From positions 1 through 11,790 of the forward strand of contig JAFUCW010000094.1 of the NCBI GenBank assembly GCA_017459485.1: a DNA stretch of 11,790 nucleotides, given 5' to 3'. Made by a program: the position numbers and the translations under genes. This document shows, piece by piece, positions 2 to 11,790 of this stretch. The stretch is from Eggerthellaceae bacterium. GTDB taxonomy: Bacteria; Actinomycetota; Coriobacteriia; Coriobacteriales; Eggerthellaceae. A model generated the notes under the pieces. The model had not been told where the DNA came from and did no database searches. It saw only the letters and a list, made by a program, of their open reading frames with translations. The first letter of the stretch is position 1, and every line of letters begins with the position of its first letter.

Positions 2-3000
2 AAGCGCCTGCTTGACCTTGGCGCTCCCGAGATCATCGTGCACCACGAACTGCGCCTGCTTCAGGAGGCGGTCGACAGCCTGGTCGACAACGGCCGTCGC
101 GGCCGCCCGGTCACCGGTCCCGGCAACCGTGCCCTCAAGAGCCTCTCCGACATGCTCAAGGGCAAGCAGGGCCGTTTCCGTCAAAACCTTCTGGGCAAGC
201 GCGTGGACTACTCGGGCCGTTCGGTAATCGTGGTGGGTCCGCAGCTGAAGCTGCATCAGTGCGGTCTGCCTTCTGCCATGGCCCTCGAGCTGTTCAAGCC
301 TTTCGTCATGAAACGCCTGGTGGAGCTTGAATATGCGGCTAACATCAAGGCTGCTAAACGTGCAGTCGACCGTGGCGCAAGCTACGTGTGGGACGTACTC
401 GAAGAGGTCATCACCGAACACCCTGTTTTGCTGAACCGCGCCCCCACGCTGCATCGTTTGGGCATTCAAGCGTTCGAGCCGGTGCTGGTGGAAGGCAAGG
501 CCATTCGCCTGCATCCGCTGGTGTGCACCGCGTTCAACGCGGACTTCGACGGCGACCAGATGGCGGTGCATGTGCCGCTGTCCAACGAAGCGCAGGCAGA
601 AGCGCGCGTGCTGATGCTGTCGTCGAACAACATCAAGTCGCCAGCTCATGGCCGTCCGCTGACCATTCCTACGCAGGACATGATCATCGGGTTGTACTAT
701 TTGACGGCGGTGCGCGAAGGCTTCCCGGGCGAAGGCCGTGCATTCATCGACTTCGCCGATGCGCTCAACGCCTACGATGCCCGTGCCGACCTGGACCTTC
801 AGGCTCGCATCTTTGCACGCCTTTCTCGCGACACGACCGTCGTCAACGAAGTCGAGTACGAAACCGAAGTCGAAGTGGAGACAACGGAGAACGGCAAGAC
901 GGTCAAGAAGACCGAAACGGTGGTCAAGAAGCGCCTCGAGACGGTCGAGATGAAAGCCGGTGAGCGCATCGAGACTTCCGTCGGCCGCATCACGTTCAAC
1001 AGCGTGTTGCCGCGCGACTACCCGTACCTGAACTATGAAATGGACAAGGGGAAGGTCAGCCGCCTTATCGAGGATTGCTGCGATCGCTATACGACCAGCC
1101 AGATGGAGCCTATCCTGGACGGCCTGAAAGATGCGGGCTTCCACTACGCAACCCGTGCAGGTGTGACCGTGTCCGTCTACGACGCGACCGTGCCGCCCCA
1201 GAAGAAAGAAATCCTCGACGAGGCCGACAAGCACGTCCAGGCCATCGAAGACGACTACGAGCTGGGTCTGATGTCCGACGATGAGCGCCATCGCCAGGTC
1301 ATCGAGGTGTGGACCGAAGCGAACGACGCAGTCGGCGACGCCATGGCAGACAACTTCGACCGGTTCAACCCCATCTACATGATGGCGTTCTCCGGCGCCC
1401 GTGGTAACATCAAGCAGATCCGCCAGCTTGCGGGCATGCGCGGCCTTATGGCAGACCCGAAGGGCGAAACCATCGACCGTCCCATCAAGGCGAATTTCCG
1501 CGAGGGGCTTTCAGTGCTCGAGTACTTTATCTCCAGCCACGGTGCGCGCAAGGGTTTGGCCGACACGGCACTGCGTACGGCAGACTCCGGTTACCTGACC
1601 CGTCGCTTGGTCGATGTTGCGCAGGACGTGATTGTGCGCGATCTGGATTGCGGTGTGGCCGAAGGTGTAGAGTACCCCCTGACCACTGCCAAGGGAGAGC
1701 TTGACTCGAACTTGATTGGCCGTTGTCTGGCCGAAGACGTGGTCGGGCCGCAAGGCAATGTGCTGCTGGAAGCCGACAACTACATTGAAAACCTTGCCCA
1801 AATGCGCGAATGGCAAAACGACGGGGTCGAGACGGTGAAGATTCGCACCATCATGACCTGCCACGCCGAGCACGGCGTATGCCAGAAGTGCTACGGCTGG
1901 GATTTGGCTACGGGCCGCCCGGTCAACATTGGCACGGCAGTGGGCATTATCGCAGCTCAGTCGATTGGCGAGCCCGGCACGCAGCTGACCATGCGTACGT
2001 TCCATACGGGCGGCGTGGCCGGCGAAGACATCACCATGGGCTTGCCTCGCGTTACCGAGCTGTTCGAAGCGCGCAAGCCTAAGGGCCAGGCAGTTCTGGC
2101 GGAGATTGCCGGTACGTTGCAGATTGGCGGCGACAAGACCGTCAAGACCCTGACTATTCACGACAAAGAAGGCAACATTCGCGAGTACGAAGTGCCTGCA
2201 CGTGCCACGATGATGGCAGGTGTGGTCGATGGATGCCAGGTCCAGATGGGCCAGCAACTAACCGTGGGCTCCATCAACCCGCACGACCTGCTGCGTTTGA
2301 CCGATCCGAACACCACTCTGCGCTACATCGTCAGCCAGGTGCAGGACGTGTACGTGAGCCAGGGCGTTGACATCAACGACAAGCATATCGAAGTGATTGC
2401 GCGTCAGATGCTGCGTAAGCTTGCGGTTTTGGACGCAGGCGATAGCGACTACCTGCCTGGTCGACAGGTCAACCGTTTCGAATTCGAGGCGGTGGCCAAC
2501 GAACTGGTGCTCGAGGGCAAAGAGCCGCCTGTGGGCCAGCCCTTGCTGCTGGGCATTACGAAGGCTTCCCTTGCAACCGACAGCTGGCTTTCCGCCGCGT
2601 CGTTCCAGGAGACCACCAAAGTGCTCACCGACGCCGCCATCGAAGGCAAGACCGACACTCTGGTTGGCCTGAAGGAAAACGTCGTCATCGGCAAGCCCAT
2701 CCCGGCGGGTACGGGCCTGGGCCGCTACCGCAATCTGGGCCTGACCTACAAGGGCGTGCCCATCTCGAAGGCTTCGGGCGATGCGCTGCCCGACTACGCC
2801 CCCGAGGAGCTGCGCGAAGTGGAAGAGCTGCTCCCGCAGCCGCAGGATTGGTCGCTTGACGGCGACGGCTATCTTGGTTTGGGCGGCAGCTACTCCAGCT
2901 ACTTCTCTAGCTTGGGAGCAGGCGGTCGCATGACTCAGTTGTCCGACGAGGAGGCTCGCCTCTATATCTACGACGACTTGGGCGTGTCTCAACGCTGGGC

Positions 3001-3457
3001 GAACAAGGTCTCCGAGGCCGGTATTGAAACGGTGGCTGACCTGGTGGGCTACACCGAAGAGGATCTGCTCAAGATCGAGGGTATCGGTGGGAAAGCGCTT
3101 GAAGAGCTGAAGGCAGGTCTGGAAGAGCGCGACCTCATGCGCGTGATCGAAGACGACCTGTCTGCGACGAGCGACGACATGAGCCAGCTGCTCGACATGG
3201 TCTTCAGCCCCGACGACACGATCCTTATCGGCGGCGACGAGCCTGCCACGTTCAACACCGACGGCGAGGACATGCTTGGAGAGGCGCTTCCGCCTCGTTC
3301 CTACCAGCGCAATCTGGAGGAGCTTGATGCCTTGTTCGGGGGCGGGAGTCTTGGGATTGACCTGACGGGCTTCCACTCGGAAGATGAGCAGTCTGCGGCA
3401 GACGTTATTGCCGAAGACGATGACGAGGTCGAACTTCCCCAGAGCGACGACGAGTAG
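2..3457 (+). CDS. rpoC: RNA polymerase beta' subunit, 5'-truncated, with an alpha-CTD-like C-terminal extension
   Basis: Largest catalytic subunit of RNA polymerase; the window holds the last 1151 residues, and the N-terminal part (first zinc site, clamp start) lies upstream. Seen: the catalytic Mg motif NADFDGDQM at visible residues 179-187; the second zinc site with Cys550, Cys620, Cys627 and Cys630, close to the usual beta' spacing; the bridge-helix/trigger-loop region around [18 protein letters not shown] (codons near 1960-2010) without the large insertion found in E. coli. A Glu/Thr/Lys-rich insertion lies near 838-960. The usual beta' end ([11 protein letters not shown], near 2704-2736) is followed by roughly 240 more residues: a Gly/Ser/Tyr linker, a helix-hairpin-helix module resembling alpha-CTD, and an Asp/Glu-rich tail. 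The stop TAG at 3455 is followed directly by a terminator, so rpoC ends its transcription unit here. Identity is certain; the role of the extension is inference. Confidence 0.98.
2939..3150 (+). other. Alpha-CTD-like helix-hairpin-helix domain inside RpoC
   Basis: Protein domain within rpoC. From [10 protein letters not shown] (2978-3007) to LEERDL (about 3118-3135) it aligns without gaps to the C-terminal domain of the RNA polymerase alpha subunit. By my alignment from memory, visible residues Arg998, Asn1001, Gly1029, Lys1031 and Glu1035 fall at the positions of E. coli alpha R265, N268, G296, K298 and E302, which contact DNA in UP elements. The positions of C269 and S299 are Lys and Ala here. 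The sequence [20 protein letters not shown] (3053-3112) is the helix-hairpin-helix core. The main alternative is a NusA acidic-repeat-type domain, which has a related fold. The fold call is strong; DNA binding is inferred. Confidence 0.85.
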
Positions 3458-3463
3458 ACAGGG

Positions 3464-3495
3464 AAACGGGGCGTCGAAACGGCGCCCCGTTTTTT
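3464..3495 (+). terminator. Intrinsic terminator of rpoC
   Basis: A 13-bp stem (3464-3476 with 3480-3492, one G-U pair) closes on an AAA loop. It has a GC-rich core (ACGGGGCG / CGCCCCGT) and runs into six T residues at 3490-3495. It begins 7 nt after the rpoC stop codon. It should separate rpoC from glmM. Confidence 0.95.
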
Positions 3496-3632: not shown

Positions 3633-5063
3633 ATGGGCAAGTACTTTGGAACGGATGGAGTGCGTGGTGTTGCGAACACGGAGCTGACGAACCGTATGGC
3701 GTACCTGCTTGGTCAAGCTGCCGCCCTGTTCATGGGGCCCAACATCGTTATAGGCAAAGACACGCGGCTTTCGGGAGACATGCTCGAGGCAGCGGCGTCG
3801 GCCGGCATCATGTCTGCTGGAGGCACCGCGCTGCTCGCTGGGATTGTGCCCACTCCGGCAGTTGCTCTGCTGGTCAACGAATTGCGCGCCGACGGTGGGT
3901 TGGTCATTTCCGCTTCCCACAACCCTCCCGAGTACAACGGCATCAAGCTGTTCGATGCGAACGGCTTCAAGTTGCCCGACGAAGTGGAAGAGAAGATCGA
4001 GGCATTCATCGACTACGGCGGCCTGGAGTCTTTGGTTTCCGCAGGCGATCCCGACGTCTGTGAAACCGAGGACTGGAAGAACGACCTGGCATATTGCTCG
4101 CTCTCATCAATCCTTGACGGTGTCGGTGGAATGCTTCCAGGCGACGCGGTAGGCGTGGCCATACCGGTCGAAGACGCAGTGGAAATATACGTCAACCATG
4201 CGGTCGAAAGCGTAAAAAGCCAGGGTTTGGACTTCTCTGGGCTTCATATTGCCCTTGATGCTGGCCATGGTGCCTCTGCTTTGACGAGCCGTCTTGCCTT
4301 CGAACGCCTGGGTGCACGCGTCACCGCCATTAACGAGGACTTCAATGGCGTTGACATCAACGTGGAGTGCGGCTCGACGTGCCTGACGCCCCTGCACGAC
4401 CTTATGGCCGAATGCGGTGCCGACGTGGGTGTGGCGCATGACGGCGATGCCGACCGCGTGATGCTTATGACGCCCGACGGGTTCGAGATCGACGGCGACT
4501 TCGTGGAGGCGGTGCTTGCGATCGACATGAAGGAGCGCGGAGTTCTTGCAGGAGACACGGCGGTGTCTACCGTTATGTGCAACCTGGGTTTTGTGAAGGC
4601 CATGGAAGCTGCCGGCATCAACGTGGTGCAGACCAAGGTGGGCGACCGCTACGTGCTGGAGGAAATGCGGGCAAGCGGTTATTCCATCGGCGGCGAGCAG
4701 TCCGGCCACATGATCTTGCTCGACTACAACTCTACCGGCGACGGTTTGATGACGGCCTGCCAATTTCTGGCAGCAGTGGTGCGCAGTGGTGGGTCGATTG
4801 CCGACGCTGTGTCCGTGATGCAGCGTTTTCCTCAGGAGTTGATCAACGTGCGTGTGGCCAGCAAGGACGGCTGGGAAGACAATGCGGCAATCGCAGACGC
4901 GGTGCGCAGCGCCGAAGAGACGCTGGGCGACACGGGTCGCGTACTCGTGCGCGCTTCCGGCACCGAGCCGCTCATTCGCGTGATGGTCGAAGCCGCCAGT
5001 GCTGAAGATGCCGTATCTCATGCCCAGGCTATTGCCCAGGTGGTGGAGCGAGTTCTCTCCTAG
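3633..5063 (+). CDS. glmM: Phosphoglucosamine mutase
   Basis: Cytoplasmic enzyme converting glucosamine-6-phosphate to glucosamine-1-phosphate, the step before GlmU on the way to UDP-GlcNAc for peptidoglycan. Seen: N-terminal GKYFGTDGVRG; active-site loop SASHNP with the phosphorylated Ser95; metal loop DGDADR (Asp270, Asp272, Asp274); sugar loop GGEQSGH (353-359); C-terminal phosphate-binding loop RASGTEP (440-446). These cover all four domains of the alpha-D-phosphohexomutase family in order. At 476 residues it is somewhat longer than the usual 445-450; the extra length lies mainly in domain 2 (about residues 125-190). The start ATG has GAAGGG 6 nt upstream, and the GKYFGTDGVRG motif right after it supports this choice. 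It follows rpoC but is cut off by a terminator, so it is probably transcribed from its own promoter. Confidence 0.97.
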   Translation: MGKYFGTDGVRGVANTELTNRMAYLLGQAAALFMGPNIVIGKDTRLSGDMLEAAASAGIMSAGGTALLAGIVPTPAVALLVNELRADGGLVISASHNPPEYNGIKLFDANGFKLPDEVEEKIEAFIDYGGLESLVSAGDPDVCETEDWKNDLAYCSLSSILDGVGGMLPGDAVGVAIPVEDAVEIYVNHAVESVKSQGLDFSGLHIALDAGHGASALTSRLAFERLGARVTAINEDFNGVDINVECGSTCLTPLHDLMAECGADVGVAHDGDADRVMLMTPDGFEIDGDFVEAVLAIDMKERGVLAGDTAVSTVMCNLGFVKAMEAAGINVVQTKVGDRYVLEEMRASGYSIGGEQSGHMILLDYNSTGDGLMTACQFLAAVVRSGGSIADAVSVMQRFPQELINVRVASKDGWEDNAAIADAVRSAEETLGDTGRVLVRASGTEPLIRVMVEAASAEDAVSHAQAIAQVVERVLS

Positions 5064-5415: not shown

Positions 5416-6474
5416 ATGAAGAAGAACATGAAATGGCGAGTTATGGCAGTTGCTTGTGTTGCGGCTCTTTGCTCGTTTGCGCTTGCTGGTTGTGCGGGAG
5501 GGGAGGCAGGCTCGGCATCTGCGTCGGCATCCTCATCCGCAGAAGCGTCGGTATCCGCATCCACAGATACATCCGCATCAGCAAGCGCATCGGCAGCGGA
5601 GGCTCCGACGAGTCCCGCAGCCGCTTCGAGCCCCGACGCAAGTGCTGCAGCTGTCTCGGACGCTGTTGCAAGCTCGTCTGAGTCAGGCAGCTCTTCGGGT
5701 GCAGGTGGCGGTTCCGTCGAGCTCCAAGTCTTCGCAGCAAATAGCCTATCCAAGGCAATGGACGAAGCCCAGGCGCTCTACACCGAGCAGACGGGCATTG
5801 CCTTTGCCGACAGCCAGTACCTCTCTTCAGGCGACTTGAACGCAGAGCTTGAGGGCGGTGCATATGCCGATATAGAGATCACTGCATCCAAGAAGACCAT
5901 GGATGATGCAGAAGAAAAGGGCTTCATCGATCCTGCGACGCGTACCACGATGTTCGTGAATGACCTGGTCATGGTCACTGCAGAGGGCAACAGCAACATC
6001 ACAGAGGCTACGCTTGACGACATTGCATCCGGTCAGTACGTCGTGTGCGTGGGTGACGACAGCGTTCCCGCAGGTAACTATGCCAACCAGTCCTTGTCCA
6101 CGGTGGGATGCTTCATCGACCCTGAAGGCAAGACTGGGTCTGAAAGCGCAGGCAAGGCCGAGGGAACCGATGCGTATGCGGGAACTCCGCTCGAGGGCAA
6201 GGTCGTTACCGACACGTCGGTGGGCAACGTATGCAAGCATGCCGAATCTGGCGATGTCGACATTGCATTCGTCTACACATCTGATGTGTATCGTTTCGGT
6301 GGCGTGAAGGTGGTCGGAACGGTTCCGGGCGACACACATAAGAACATTACCTACCCCGGCGCCGTATGTGACCAGAGCGCACATCCTGCGGAAGCACAGG
6401 CATTCCTTGACTGGTGCATGACCGATGCCGGCGCTCAGGAAATCTGGCAGAAGTGGGGCTTCGAGCTCGCTTAG
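5416..6474 (+). CDS. modA: Molybdate-binding lipoprotein of the ABC importer
   Basis: Extracytoplasmic solute-binding protein that captures molybdate (or tungstate) for ModBC. Seen: lipoprotein signal peptide with lipobox LAGC, lipidated Cys26; a low-complexity Ser/Ala linker at residues 27-100; then a complete ModA domain from V101. Ligand-site counterparts by family alignment are Ser110 (in AANSL), Ser137/Ser138 (in YLSSGDL), the PAGNY loop (218-222), Val272 region (TSVGNV) and Tyr287 (in FVYTSD). The end, KWGFELA, matches the family C-terminus. The 352-residue length exceeds the usual 250-260 because of the linker and lipid anchor. It has its own promoter, and a 116-nt gap with a hairpin separates it from modB. 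Sequence alone does not decide molybdate versus tungstate. Confidence 0.94.
   Translation: MKKNMKWRVMAVACVAALCSFALAGCAGGEAGSASASASSSAEASVSASTDTSASASASAAEAPTSPAAASSPDASAAAVSDAVASSSESGSSSGAGGGSVELQVFAANSLSKAMDEAQALYTEQTGIAFADSQYLSSGDLNAELEGGAYADIEITASKKTMDDAEEKGFIDPATRTTMFVNDLVMVTAEGNSNITEATLDDIASGQYVVCVGDDSVPAGNYANQSLSTVGCFIDPEGKTGSESAGKAEGTDAYAGTPLEGKVVTDTSVGNVCKHAESGDVDIAFVYTSDVYRFGGVKVVGTVPGDTHKNITYPGAVCDQSAHPAEAQAFLDWCMTDAGAQEIWQKWGFELA
5509..5600 (+). repeat. Imperfect 6-bp repeats coding the Ser/Ala linker of ModA
   Basis: Degenerate tandem units of the type TCNGCA / GCATCC encode alternating Ser-Ala residues (SASASASSSAEASVSAS and similar). The units vary in third positions, so the protein composition may be kept by selection while the DNA is prone to slippage length change. 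The linker continues as less regular Ser/Ala/Pro/Gly to about 5715. It lies within modA, directly after the lipidation site. Confidence 0.7.
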
Positions 6475-6482
6475 GTTTGGGT

Positions 6483-6508
6483 CTGTGCCGTTTTAGCGAA
6501 CGGCACAG
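6483..6508 (+). other. Strong hairpin between modA and modB, no U tract
   Basis: Perfect 10-bp stem, CTGTGCCGTT (6483-6492) and AACGGCACAG (6499-6508), with a 6-nt loop, starting 8 nt after the modA stop. No T run follows on the + strand, so it is not a standard intrinsic terminator. It may stabilise the 3' end of a modA mRNA or mark a processing or partial termination point, so that the binding protein is made in excess over the permease. That role is inference from position. Confidence 0.6.
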
Positions 6509-6578
6509 CCACTCGCCGCTACGGAGGCCCTTGGCACCTTATCTTCTCGTACCCTGCCACCTTTCAGACTCGTTCAAC

Positions 6579-6584
6579 TATAAT
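6579..6584 (+). promoter_or_regulatory. Consensus -10 box positioned for leaderless transcription of modB
   Basis: A perfect TATAAT ends 6 nt before the modB ATG at 6591, so the expected transcription start coincides with the first base of the start codon. There is no Shine-Dalgarno sequence in the preceding 20 nt, which fits leaderless translation, a common arrangement in actinomycetotes. I see no good -35 box at 16-18 bp. Confidence 0.6.
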
Positions 6585-6590
6585 ATTCGT

Positions 6591-7988
6591 ATGAGAAGAA
6601 TCGTTCTTTGTATAGCGTGCGTCTTTGCCTTTCTGGCCTGTCCGAAGGCTTTGTGGGCGGACGAAGTTGCTGACGTGGATGCCGCTCCTTCTGAAAGCGC
6701 GGCCGGAGGATTACAAGAAGGTCCATCTGCGGCAGAGATGACCGTTTCTGCAGATGGCCTTTCCGCTAGTATTGACGGCTGTGCGTTCGCGCTCAATGAC
6801 TTCGCGCGCGCAAGCAAGGGGAGCAACCGCGAAATCGATGGCGACTACTACGGCTACACCTACCTGATCGGCCAAAAGCCGACCGACCTTATGTACACGG
6901 TGACCTCCACCGACGTGGTTGTCTATATTGATCCGGCTGCCGCCGATAGTGTGGCGCTTGACCTGTCGTCGGAGGCGGACTTGACAAGCGTGCGCGCGTA
7001 CATCGAAGCGTTGGACAAGGCGAACGAAAACGGCAACAGTGGGATTCCTGCAGCTGCCGACTGGCATTTCACCACGCAGGACGCTATCGAACTTGATAGG
7101 GTGGTTTTCAGCTTCAACCAGAATCTAACCGAGGACCGTGCGTACAACTGCGTCATCGGTCGCGACGGTTCGGACGTAACGGATTCCTCCAACGCACACT
7201 ACACCCAGATATCGCATGCGTGCTTTGCGCGCTTGGTCGCCGTCCAGGATGCTGCCATTGCGGCACCCCCTTCCGCACTGGAGCAATTCGGCCAATTCAT
7301 GGCAGAACTGGACTGGTCGCCTTTGTGGGTCACGCTGCGCACCACGCTCACGGCAATCGTGTTCATCTTCGTCCTTGGCCTGGCCGCTGCGTATCTCACG
7401 ATGCACGCTTCGCTGCGCGTGCGCGACTTGCTCGACACGCTATTCACAATTCCGATGGTGCTTCCCCCCACGGTGTGCGGCTTCTTGCTCCTTCTACTGC
7501 TTGGGAAGAACACAGCGCTAGGGCAGTGGTTCAACGATGTGGGCTTCCCGCTTGTGTTCAGCTGGCCGGCCACGGTTATCGCCGCCACAGTGGTGGCGTT
7601 TCCTCTGATGTACCGCAACGCGCGTGGGGCGTTCGAAAACCTGGACCCCAACATGCTTGATGCGGCACGCACGTTGGGTTGGAGCGAAGGCCGCATATTC
7701 TTCAGGCTCATGCTGCCGCTGTCTTGGTCGAGCATTGCGGCGGCGACCGTGCTTGCGTTCGCCCGTGCTCTGGGAGAATTCGGCGCCACGCTGTTCCTGG
7801 CAGGCAACTACTTGGGAGTCACACGCACCATACCCATTGCCATCTACTTCCACTGGATGAACGGGCGCGCCGACATCGCGCTCTTCTGGGTGATTGTCAT
7901 CCTGATATTCAGCTTCATCATGATTCTGTTCATTAACCTGTGGAGTCAGCACACTACGCGCTACCGGAGGGGAGCGGAAGGGCAATGA
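6591..7988 (+). CDS. modB: Molybdate ABC transporter permease with an extra N-terminal extracytoplasmic domain
   Basis: Inner-membrane subunit that forms the molybdate channel and docks ModC. The 465 residues divide into an N-terminal signal-like segment (1-23, possible cleavage after ALWA), an extracytoplasmic region of about 217 residues, and a permease domain from about residue 241. The permease part has five hydrophobic segments and the EAA-type coupling loop DAARTLGWSEGRIFFRLMLP (from residue 357), then ARALGEFGATLF typical of ModB. Ordinary ModB is about 220-230 residues, so the front half is an addition. I do not recognise that region; it contains three Cys (64, 187, 211) and is rich in Asp, Ser and Tyr. 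The ATG at 6591 is chosen because a signal sequence follows it and a TATAAT box precedes it. An upstream in-frame ATG at 6414 would overlap modA and add a segment with no clear family features. The stop overlaps the modC start (ATGA). Confidence 0.9.
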   Translation: MRRIVLCIACVFAFLACPKALWADEVADVDAAPSESAAGGLQEGPSAAEMTVSADGLSASIDGCAFALNDFARASKGSNREIDGDYYGYTYLIGQKPTDLMYTVTSTDVVVYIDPAAADSVALDLSSEADLTSVRAYIEALDKANENGNSGIPAAADWHFTTQDAIELDRVVFSFNQNLTEDRAYNCVIGRDGSDVTDSSNAHYTQISHACFARLVAVQDAAIAAPPSALEQFGQFMAELDWSPLWVTLRTTLTAIVFIFVLGLAAAYLTMHASLRVRDLLDTLFTIPMVLPPTVCGFLLLLLLGKNTALGQWFNDVGFPLVFSWPATVIAATVVAFPLMYRNARGAFENLDPNMLDAARTLGWSEGRIFFRLMLPLSWSSIAAATVLAFARALGEFGATLFLAGNYLGVTRTIPIAIYFHWMNGRADIALFWVIVILIFSFIMILFINLWSQHTTRYRRGAEGQ

Positions 7989-9097
7989 GCCTGCAAATTG
8001 ATATCCGCAAGCATTTCCCGTCCTTCGATTTAGGGGTGGCGCTGGAAGCAGATAGCGAAGTGCTGGGACTGCTGGGAGCGTCCGGCTGCGGCAAAAGCTT
8101 GACCATGCGTTGCATCGCAGGCATAGAAACGCCCGACGAAGGGCGCATCGTGGTGAACGACTGCGTCTTCTTCGACAGCGAGGCGAAGATCAACTTGAAA
8201 CCCCAGGAACGCAAGACGGCCTTGCTGTTCCAGAACTACATGCTCTTTCCTAACCTGACGGTGGAAGAGAACGTGGCGGCTGGGATCGGGCGCAGCGTGC
8301 CGGAAGCCGACCGTCGGCGCATAGTGGAAGAAGAGCTGCAGCGCTTCGACATCTCCACCTTTGCGGAACGCTACCCAGCCCAGCTTTCCGGCGGACAGCA
8401 GCAACGCGTGGCTTTGGCGCGCATGCTGGCGGCCCGGCCTGGCATCCTCATGCTCGACGAGCCATTCTCCGCGCTTGACGCGCACCTTAAGGGCGTGCTC
8501 GAGCAAAGCATGGTCAGCTTGTTCGAAGCTTACGAGGGCACCATCCTCTACGTGAGCCATGACATCGATGAAGCCCTGCGTTTCTGCGACCGCATTGCTG
8601 TTATGGAATCCGGGCACATCATGGAGGTGCAGGATGGTCGTGCGCTCATGGACCGCCCCACCAGCCTGGCCGGCATCAAGCTTTCCGGTGTGAAGAACGC
8701 CCTTGAAGTGGAAAAGGTGGACGAACACACGGTGTACTGCCCGCATTGGGGCGTGGATCTGGCAACGGAGGAGGCGGTACCCGACAACGTGAAAGCTTTC
8801 GGCGTGCGCGCCTTCTACATCCAGCAGGCGGCCGCGCCTGGCACCAACGTCTACCGCATGCGTGTGGACCGCACAAGCGACTCGCGCTTCGACCGCACCG
8901 CCCTGCTGCAGTTCCTAGACCGCCGTGAAGATGCGGACCCGGCCGTCGGCGCCGCCGAGCAGGAAATGCGTTTCTTGCACCAGCACCTCTACTGGCGCAT
9001 CAACCTGCTTGGAGCCGATAGGGATGCCCTGCCCAAAGTGGGAGACGAGCTGCTCATCTCCGTCCCTCCCGAAGCCATCTACCTCGTAACCCGCTAA
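7985..9097 (+). CDS. modC: Molybdate ABC transporter ATP-binding protein
   Basis: Cytoplasmic ATPase that powers molybdate uptake through ModB. The 370 residues show Walker A GASGCGKS (31-38), signature LSGGQQQR (134-141), Walker B ILMLDEP (154-160) and the switch histidine in YVSHD (His192). The C-terminal part (about 235-370) is regulatory-domain-like, with short beta-rich stretches such as VDLATEE, AFGVRAF and LLISVPPEAIYLV, in the place of the TOBE domain of ModC. The start overlaps the modB stop by 4 nt (ATGA), with the purine-rich AGGGGAG at 7968-7974 upstream, which implies translational coupling. It is the last mod gene; no molybdenum cofactor synthesis genes follow in the window. Related sulfate or iron importer ATPases are the alternative, but ModA and ModB beside it argue for molybdate. 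Confidence 0.94.
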   Translation: MSLQIDIRKHFPSFDLGVALEADSEVLGLLGASGCGKSLTMRCIAGIETPDEGRIVVNDCVFFDSEAKINLKPQERKTALLFQNYMLFPNLTVEENVAAGIGRSVPEADRRRIVEEELQRFDISTFAERYPAQLSGGQQQRVALARMLAARPGILMLDEPFSALDAHLKGVLEQSMVSLFEAYEGTILYVSHDIDEALRFCDRIAVMESGHIMEVQDGRALMDRPTSLAGIKLSGVKNALEVEKVDEHTVYCPHWGVDLATEEAVPDNVKAFGVRAFYIQQAAAPGTNVYRMRVDRTSDSRFDRTALLQFLDRREDADPAVGAAEQEMRFLHQHLYWRINLLGADRDALPKVGDELLISVPPEAIYLVTR

Positions 9098-9913: not shown

Positions 9914-10002
9914 TACAATAGGAGCAATCAACGAGTAGTCGCTACGACGTAAGTCCGGTTGTGGCGACCATGCAGCTCGCGGTGGAAGCCGCGGGCTTTT
10001 TT
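9914..10002 (+). ncRNA. Candidate structured leader or small RNA ending in a terminator
   Basis: A -10-like TACAAT (9914-9919) would start RNA near 9926; the -35 is weak. Hairpin 1 pairs GTCGCTAC (9938-9945) with GTGGCGAC (9961-9968, one G-U), and inside it GAC/GTC can close a GUAA tetraloop. Five nt later comes hairpin 2, the terminator at 9974-10002. The product would be about 75 nt with nearly every base in a helix. It ends 138 nt before the MFS start, so it could be an attenuator for that gene, a free small RNA, or only the end of the upstream transcript. It matches no riboswitch class I can recall. Confidence 0.4.
9974..10002 (+). terminator. Intrinsic terminator or attenuator upstream of the MFS gene
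   Basis: A 9-bp stem, AGCTCGCGG (9974-9982) with CCGCGGGCT (9989-9997, one G-U pair), a 6-nt TGGAAG loop and six T residues (9997-10002). It lies 150 nt downstream of the acetyltransferase stop. The remaining 138 nt before the MFS gene contain a possible 6-bp stem (10028-10033 with 10049-10054) but no clear promoter. Confidence 0.85.
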
Positions 10003-10140
10003 GTTGGATGGGCATGGAACGGATTCGGCGCTCACGTAAAACTCCATCGAGCGCAGGGAAAGATAGACTTGCGGGTCGAACCCATCCTCCTGTCCACCAG
10101 GCTGCACGTATGTCGCATCGGGAAGAAAGGAGCAGAAAGC

Positions 10141-11790
10141 ATGGGTGAAGCGGCAAAGCAGAAAACGGATTTAGGAATGGAACGACCAGGGCGCCCCCTC
10201 GCGCTCCTGACAGTGCTGTTTGCCTCGGCGTTCGTCGCTGCGTTCAACGAAAATATCGTTAACGTCGGACTGGTGGACATCATGGCCGAGTTCGGCATAG
10301 GCGCTGCAACGGTCCAATGGCTTGTCACCGGCTACATGATCATGACCACATTGGTGGTGAGTATCGTCGCGTTCCTTCAGCGCCGCTTTTCGCTGCGAAC
10401 GCTCTTCTTCGCAGCATGCGCGGTGCTCATTGTGGGTGCGCTCGTGGATCTTATGGCTCCCACGTTTCCGCTGCTTCTTGCGTTTCGCCTGCTACAGGCG
10501 GTAGGCACCGGCATTTTCGTTCCCGTGATGATGTCAACCGTGCTCATGCTGGCGCCCCACAACAAGGTGGGCACCTTCCTTGCAGTGGGCAGCAGCTGCA
10601 TCACGCTGGGGCCGGCGCTGGGGCCAGTGGCGTCCGGTGTCGCAGTTACGCTCTTCGGGTGGCGCAGCATGTTCGCGCTCCCGCTTGTCGCTATGGTTGT
10701 CATTCTGGCCGCTGGCATATTCTTCGTGAAACCCATTGCGCCTACGCAGCGCATCCACCTTGACGTTCCCAGTGTTGTGCTCCTTGCCGTGGGTTTAACG
10801 CTTGCGGTCTACGGCTTGCTGGTGGTCACCACGCAGCTGATTGTTGCATTGGCATGCTTGCTTGTGGGCGTTGCAGCTCTTGCGGCGTTCGCTTTGCGCC
10901 AAGCGCACTTGGAAGAGCCAGTGCTCGACTTGTCACCTTTGCGGGTTCCGCAGTTCGCACTTGCCTGTGTGCTGGTGGTTGTGTCCATGATGACCACGTT
11001 TTCCTTAAGCGTCCTTTTGCCGCTGTACTTCGAGGGCGCTTGTGCGCAGACGGCGCTTTCGGCGGGTTTGCTTATGCTTTCGCCCATTCTGCTCAACGCT
11101 GCAACAGCCATCTTAGGCGGCCGCATTCTGGACAAGCACGGCGAAAAAGTGCTGCTCCCAGCGGGGTTTGCCACCATGGTGGCAGGTTTGCTTCTTTGCT
11201 CGCTCGTTGCAGAAGGTGCAGAAGCGATACCCATGGTGGCCGCATCCTGCGTGCCCTACTTGGCCGTCGGCTTGGTGATGAGCCCGTCTCAGACGGCGGG
11301 GCTCAAGCAGATTCCAGCAGAGCAGCACGTGTCGGGCGTTGCCATCATGAACACGTTTATCCAGCTGGCCGCATCCATTGGTCCGTCGCTGTTCATCGGC
11401 ATCCTATCGAGCACTCATGCAGCCCAGGTGGCAGCGGGAAGCTCCGATGCCCTTGCCCAGGCCGCTGGGTTTGCTGCCGCTTCCCGCGTCGCTGCCGTAA
11501 TAGCTGTGGCGGGAATTGCATGTGCGGTGCTGTTTGTGATGCTCGGAAAACGTGGGCATGCGCAGGATGCTGCACGGACACATGCTATGCCCACCTTGGC
11601 TTCGGTGATGAAGCGCGATGCCTATACCATTTCGAACAAATCCTCTGTGCACGAGGCGGTGAAAACCATGCTCGAGTACGACACGAGCGGCCTGCCGGTT
11701 GTCGACCACAGTGGGGTAGTGGTGGGATTCATTTCGGACGGAGACATCCTAAAGGGCCTTGCCGGTGCGAGGCAAACCGATCTGGCTTAC
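10141..11790 (+). CDS. DHA2-family MFS exporter fused to a CBS domain (3'-truncated by the window)
   Basis: Predicted inner-membrane proton-driven efflux pump of the 14-TM drug:H+ antiporter-2 type, like LmrB-class multidrug exporters; the substrate is unknown. The reading frame is open for all 550 codons to the window end. Seen: 14 hydrophobic segments across residues 18-473; the family TM1 motif in FNENIVNVGL; QWLVTGYMI at TM2; a short RRFSLRTLFF loop in place of motif A; and the antiporter motif C in TLGPALGPVASG (TM5). After TM14 and the linker GKRGHAQDAARTHAMPTLA, a CBS domain starts at about residue 486 (VMKRDAYTISNKSSVHEAVK, then TSGLPVVDHSGVVVGFISDGD). CBS domains bind adenosine-type ligands and usually come in pairs, so a second copy may lie beyond the window. 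The start ATG has AAAGGAG (10126-10132) 8 nt upstream. Confidence 0.9.
   Translation, partial: MGEAAKQKTDLGMERPGRPLALLTVLFASAFVAAFNENIVNVGLVDIMAEFGIGAATVQWLVTGYMIMTTLVVSIVAFLQRRFSLRTLFFAACAVLIVGALVDLMAPTFPLLLAFRLLQAVGTGIFVPVMMSTVLMLAPHNKVGTFLAVGSSCITLGPALGPVASGVAVTLFGWRSMFALPLVAMVVILAAGIFFVKPIAPTQRIHLDVPSVVLLAVGLTLAVYGLLVVTTQLIVALACLLVGVAALAAFALRQAHLEEPVLDLSPLRVPQFALACVLVVVSMMTTFSLSVLLPLYFEGACAQTALSAGLLMLSPILLNAATAILGGRILDKHGEKVLLPAGFATMVAGLLLCSLVAEGAEAIPMVAASCVPYLAVGLVMSPSQTAGLKQIPAEQHVSGVAIMNTFIQLAASIGPSLFIGILSSTHAAQVAAGSSDALAQAAGFAAASRVAAVIAVAGIACAVLFVMLGKRGHAQDAARTHAMPTLASVMKRDAYTISNKSSVHEAVKTMLEYDTSGLPVVDHSGVVVGFISDGDILKGLAGARQTDLAY

Follow-up and report, generated by a model that had tools for sequence, protein, structure and literature searches.

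An alpha-CTD-like domain at the C-terminus of the RNA polymerase beta' subunit in Coriobacteriia

Organization of the rpoC gene

The window, a stretch of 11,790 nucleotides from an Eggerthellaceae bacterium (assembly GCA_017459485.1, contig JAFUCW010000094.1), begins inside rpoC, which encodes the beta' subunit of RNA polymerase. Behind the conserved beta' core, this gene continues into a domain resembling the C-terminal domain (CTD) of the RNA polymerase alpha subunit. The 5' end of rpoC lies outside the window, and the frame is numbered from the window edge. Its parts are arranged as follows (entropy, mean column entropy; pLDDT, predicted local distance difference test):

2..2731, + strand: conserved core of RpoC (beta'), frame residues 1-910; TIGR02386 match over 1-910, 1250.8 bits
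2732..2941, + strand: variable Gly/Ser/Tyr linker from core to domain, residues 911-980; entropy 1.08; pLDDT mostly low
2942..3148, + strand: alpha-CTD-like domain, residues 981-1049; PF03118 match at 2972-3127
2993..2995, + strand: Arg codon, equivalent to E. coli alpha R265 (RpoC R998) in a gap-free alignment
3002..3004, + strand: Asn codon, equivalent to N268 in the same gap-free alignment
3086..3094, + strand: Gly-Gly-Lys codons, the first Gly equivalent to G296 and the Lys to K298
3104..3106, + strand: Glu codon, equivalent to E302
3149..3346, + strand: conserved acidic tail after the domain, residues 1050-1115; entropy 0.29; low-confidence model
3347..3457, + strand: variable acidic C-terminal end and stop codon; entropy 1.63

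In hmmscan, the beta' domains PF04997 (end only), PF00623, PF04983, PF05000 and PF04998 were found in one frame with the alpha-CTD-like domain. Apart from its 5' part, the frame thus holds the full RpoC set (Rpb1 domains 1-5). The domain sits behind these Rpb1 domains and is not attached to an alpha N-terminal domain, so that the frame is not an RpoA. The rpoA gene of the same genome, whose state the sequence-only reading of this DNA had left to be checked, lies on another contig and has kept its own CTD.

Identity and fold of the domain

The sequence-only reading had proposed a module homologous to the alpha CTD behind the beta' core, and the profile searches bear this out. In the rpoC frame, PF03118 (RNA_pol_A_CTD, cut-off 23.8 bits) scored 45.9 bits in the genome profile search and 40.9 and 44.3 bits in hmmscan. 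The helix-hairpin-helix family HHH_5 (PF14520) reached 22.6 and 25.6 bits in hmmscan (cut-off 27) and 27.6 bits in the genome search, always less than PF03118 on the same sequence. The alignment of the RpoC domain with the alpha CTD is gap-free, and its sequence matches in the PDB are alpha subunits down to an E-value of 0.11. Two Spx complexes, 3gfk and 1z3e, were also matched. When the remaining HHH_5 proteins of four genomes (30 loci of 34 matches) were scored on a hidden Markov model of alpha and RpoC CTDs, they reached at most 13.5 bits; this model is biased towards the domain, and as the R265 and N268 positions of these proteins are unaligned, they give no clean background rate for the residues at these two positions.

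The predicted structure agrees with this assignment. In a first AlphaFold model, the domain had 10-residue blocks at pLDDT 80-92, and a second model, with blocks at 76-86, agreed with it. Foldseek returned the alpha-CTD fold for the predicted domain; among the matches listed, the other rows were RNA polymerase entries, and the alpha CTDs of E. coli transcription-translation coupling and antitermination complexes were included. Linker and tail were mostly of low confidence in the first model, and no shape is assigned to either. Across 21 RpoC C-termini (the window and near relatives), entropy was 0.17 at the end of the core, 1.08 in the linker and 0.29 in the domain. The contrast between core end and linker, with the low pLDDT of the latter, supports the tether proposed earlier, as a variable linker. 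In the same set, the acidic tail had an entropy of 0.29, equal to that of the domain, and the last residues 1.63.

Distribution of the domain and of a second beta' module

Within the window's order, an RpoC-sized frame (889-1534 amino acids) carried a match in 74 of 75 genomes, each of which also had an rpoA-type match; a single genome (G370) had the rpoA-type match only. The picture was divided in a set of 70 Coriobacteriia genomes that includes 65 from outside this order. The domain was found in an RpoC-type frame in 41, a different C-terminal module in 24, both in none and neither in five. Frames of the 41 ranged from 327 to 1600 amino acids, the short ones (G101, 327 amino acids, sequence not read; G085, 515 amino acids) being probably cut by contig ends, and 39 scored above the Pfam cut-off and two below it (G067, 23.2 bits; G006, 21.0 bits). 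Of the five genomes lacking both modules, G077 and G083 gave no match to beta', and G029, G119 and G139 were left without assignment. A comparison of RpoC C-termini across the class, as suggested by the earlier reading, thus extends the domain to many Coriobacteriia and not to all of them.

The 24 genomes with the alternative module comprise 19 of 20 in family f8, all four of f19 and the only one of f20; three of their frames were short (501, 527 and 781 amino acids), probably also cut by contig ends. In f8 and f19, this alternative beta' C-terminus consists of two tandem Cys/His repeats (tails of eight genomes, L033-L040). The one tail scanned, from G003, matched zf-TRM13_CCCH (1.2e-9) and DUF5763 (2.9e-9). 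Some match to the Cys/His stretch was present in 68 of the 70 Coriobacteriia genomes, mostly in other, shorter frames.

In the other classes of the phylum, one of 70 genomes (G336) had a PF03118 match in an RpoC frame, and five more had a second PF03118 match in frames other than RpoC. Searching proteins with the domain of G336 gave nine (P0121-P0129), all of them RpoC with PF03118. The window's domain gave 1443 protein matches, of which the best 120 carry PF04998 and PF03118, and record titles among the 80 loci kept out of 151 name Eggerthella, Adlercreutzia, Gordonibacter, Senegalimassilia, Slackia, Raoultibacter and Paraeggerthella. Two alpha-CTD-like domains were seen in other proteins: L097 (G226) is a 631-amino-acid frame with the domain (PF03118, 85 bits) ahead of a stretch that looks AAA+ ATPase-like by eye, and L095 (G302) a 591-amino-acid frame with the domain (56.3 bits) near its N-terminus.

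Conservation of the five residues

In 21 alpha CTDs of Coriobacteriia genomes, all five residues (Arg 265, Asn 268, Gly 296, Lys 298 and Glu 302 in E. coli numbering) were present (21/21). Their equivalents in RpoC were counted over 73 sequences: 43 from the window's order, the window included, and 30 from 13 other Coriobacteriia families, the latter picked by a PF03118 match and not at random, so that more diverged domains could be missed. The counts omit L015 (truncated), L002 (a duplicate of the window) and the out-of-class or other proteins L093-L097, L107 and L109. All five residues were found in 43/43 sequences of the order and in only 5/30 of the other families. The equivalents of R265, G296 and E302 were invariant (73/73; 30/30 outside the order), and that of K298 was present in 66/73, being kept in 23 and lost in seven of the 30 outside the order. 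Trp at position 266 occurred in 68/73 RpoC domains, and Lys at 269, replacing Cys, in 67/73. The best-scoring proteins of two Coriobacteriia search sets had all five residues (120/120 and 28/28), as had 79/80 named loci, for which the scan pattern required Arg-Trp.

The domain also appears to be under constraint at the codon level. Over 80 loci (3160 pairs, uncorrected), the median proportion of nonsynonymous differences (pN) was 0.074 against 0.534 for synonymous ones (pS); two of these loci lack the core motif in frame, L155 (which starts inside the gene) and L191 (a 1555-amino-acid frame of a diverged type).

Origin of the domain

A beta' core tree of 46 rows (quick method, unrooted, with the Shimodaira-Hasegawa-like approximate likelihood ratio test, SH-aLRT, as its only support; without L197, L209, L211, L212, L227 and L228, which gave no usable frame, and without family f20) separated the Coriobacteriia, including the zinc-tail families, from the other rows by a branch (99). 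Five G336-like rows were placed among actinobacteria that lack the domain (98 and 99). Since the long-branched Coriobacteriia families f7 and f10 carry the domain, a single gain at the base of the class is favoured, and the domain probably has one old origin within Coriobacteriia. A single origin that includes the G336-like clade was rejected: because its rows sit among domain-less actinobacteria, two origins are likelier, and one origin followed by repeated loss is less likely than two gains. In the most economical scenario, the domain was gained once at the base of the class and later replaced in f8, f19 and f20, and the G336-like clade gained it separately.

In a CTD tree, built on only 56 columns with the order sequences reduced to 14 and with an unsettled bootstrap, one branch (98/96) set apart the 44 Coriobacteriia RpoC CTDs and another (99/90) the 21 alpha CTDs. 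As the two groups separate, the RpoC copy looks old, and recent copying from the CTD of the genome's rpoA is not supported. The idea that the domain had moved past a motif shared between orders was dropped after a profile comparison of tail and linker (probability 1.3, p 0.039).

Possible function of the beta' module

Textbook promoter recognition upstream of the start site relies on two alpha CTDs and sigma region 4. With the domain described here, the polymerase would have a third alpha-CTD-like module, on the C-terminus of beta', beside the two CTDs of the alpha dimer. In the passages of the literature used here and below, alpha CTDs bind AT-rich UP elements and activators, water-mediated contacts with DNA are made by R265 and N294 in both E. 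coli and M. smegmatis, and an UP element stimulates mycobacterial polymerases about threefold (PMC5511352). In B. subtilis, R261A and G292A, read here as the equivalents of R265 and G296, could not be introduced (PMC4495994). Omega forms a bridge between the two termini of beta' (PMC9973325). With a dCas9-omega fusion bound 80-81 bp upstream, activation in E. coli was about 8-fold when rpoZ was missing and not significant in the parent strain (PMC8096225). In the window's genome, an omega match scored 26.6 bits, just above the cut-off of 26.

Since the beta' C-terminus adjoins omega, and in E. coli omega fused to a DNA-bound protein can activate at a distance of about 80 bp upstream, the module would be positioned to reach upstream promoter DNA. 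There, a face of the R265 type (R265, W266, N268, K269, K298 and E302) may dock on the minor groove of AT-rich DNA, alone or together with a DNA-bound activator, and would stabilize the polymerase at promoters. The invariant Arg 265 and the added Lys 269 favour such a contact with DNA. Docking of the beta'-tethered module on DNA, or on DNA plus activator, is proposed with moderate confidence. If selection acts on an additional arm of beta' that docks nucleic acids or activators, the zinc-finger-like module found at this place in sister families would be expected.

Several observations weigh against this proposal. Outside the order, the equivalent of N268 is kept in only 8/30 sequences and lost in 22/30 while the domain persists; the five residues singled out by the sequence-only reading therefore hold for the window and its order and, with the losses at K298, only in part for the other families. 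The G336-like clade lacks R265 altogether (0/9): Tyr takes the place of R265 and Ser that of N268 in 9/9. In contrast to the alpha CTD, the equivalent of N294 is Gly in 73/73, and that of S299, which we take to be a further residue of the DNA face, is Ala in 72/73. Position 261, which in alpha helps to contact sigma according to the literature passages, is Gly in 72/73. The median net charge of the domain is -7 in the order (n=43; window -8) against -2 in the 21 alpha CTDs; in the other Coriobacteriia families it is -3. A Thermus polymerase whose alpha CTD lacks some of the DNA-binding residues showed no UP response (PMC5511352), and the geometric argument for upstream reach is an analogy taken from E. 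coli. The acidic charge in the order, the changes at 294 and 299 and the loss of N268 elsewhere would argue for weaker or different DNA binding, or for protein docking.

Protein docking could mean that the alpha-CTD fold is kept as a landing pad on which activators, an elongation factor or sigma would bind, with little or no contact to DNA. Regulators also bind alpha CTDs, as in the Spx complexes among the matches, and the acidic surface, the N294G and S299A changes, and the persistence of fold and position where N268 varies or R265 is missing are consistent with such a role. However, a pure protein dock has no obvious need for R265 and E302, which do not vary in Coriobacteriia, and the basic Lys in place of Cys at 269 also speaks against it; we consider it rather unlikely. 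Another role would lie in elongation, with the domain acting on nascent RNA, NusA, rRNA antitermination or transcription-translation coupling and not at promoters. The zinc-finger-like repeats at the same beta' position in sister families and the fold matches to coupling and antitermination complexes point in this direction, but no sign of RNA binding was noticed in the sequence, and the R265-type residues are those described for DNA, which makes this role distinctly improbable.

It is very unlikely that the domain is a generic helix-hairpin-helix that merely resembles an alpha CTD and is kept for beta' stability or omega assembly. This reading was rejected as the main one, and is already largely contradicted, by PF03118 scoring about 18 bits above HHH_5, by PDB sequence and fold matches that point to alpha and RNA polymerase, and by the invariant Arg 265. 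Absence of the domain and its replacement in three sister families would fit a lineage decoration without selected function, but its presence in 74 of the 75 order genomes, its two apparent origins and the low pN relative to pS leave this reading hardly credible. Returning to the docking arm, we suggest tentatively that the beta' C-terminus is, next to omega, a repeated mounting site for interchangeable docking modules, alpha-CTD-like twice and zinc-finger-like in three families, which would reach upstream and set promoter choice independently of the alpha CTDs.

Relation to known systems and databases

Compared with the RpoA CTD (PF03118; E. coli, B. subtilis and M. smegmatis), the beta' domain shares the predicted fold, the gap-free match, the five residues and a flexible linker to the polymerase. 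It differs in being fused to beta' in one copy per polymerase, in its residues at 266 (Trp, 68/73), 269 (Lys, 67/73), 294 (Gly, 73/73) and 299 (Ala, 72/73), and, in the window's order, in being more acidic and followed by a conserved acidic tail. Actinobacterial beta'i1 and cyanobacterial SI3 are likewise lineage-bound extra domains on large subunits, but they are inserts within the subunit and have other folds in the passages of PMC5511352 and PMC13114784. Actinobacterial polymerases are described there as containing one lineage-specific insertion, beta'i1 (PMC5511352), and an alpha CTD at the beta' C-terminus is not among the lineage-specific inserts of these passages. Like dCas9-omega, the beta' domain would, as proposed here, be a DNA-binding unit tied near the beta' C-terminus and acting upstream of the promoter; dCas9-omega, in contrast, is engineered, sits on omega, is directed to a programmed site and, in the study cited, was active only without native omega.

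The architecture is already present in sequence databases. The NCBIfam beta' model NF011498 (PRK14906) covers RpoC including the domain (profile positions 1283-1448 of 1459 on residues 954-1128) and is described merely as "DNA-directed RNA polymerase subunit beta'"; its CDD version is presumably titled as a beta'/alpha domain fusion protein. Precomputed Pfam lists show the beta'/PF03118 architecture, and one NCBI fragment (P0040) is named after the alpha CTD. Among the papers listed in searches of an open-licence full-text library, none was recognised as describing the fusion, and names of E. coli alpha residues brought up no paper there. The earlier reading knew of no description of the fusion, which fits the literature searched; in the databases, the architecture is visible though apparently undiscussed.

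Much of one class of gut and environmental Actinobacteria thus appears to have a further alpha-CTD-like module on beta', and its polymerase may have one more hand for reading promoters than the textbook enzymes. Because of this module, promoter and activator rules taken from E. coli or mycobacteria may mislead for Coriobacteriia. The domain would also offer a natural test of how an alpha CTD behaves when moved to another anchoring point, and an example of modules being exchanged on an enzyme that ranks among the most conserved in the cell.

Features downstream of rpoC

Directly 3' of the rpoC stop codon lies one further feature:

3461..3495, + strand: hairpin into a T-run (-25.4 kcal/mol, z -4.4)

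This hairpin is a probable rpoC terminator, and it was not among the reports of a consensus terminator scan. It is followed by a gene of the phosphoglucosamine-mutase type (3633-5063, PGM_PMM domains I-IV). Family matches assign the region 5416-9097 to an ABC transporter with its solute-binding protein, membrane component and ATPase; from the arrangement we would guess it to be of the molybdate type. The last frame (9961-11790), which is open at the window end, combines an MFS transporter and a CBS domain.
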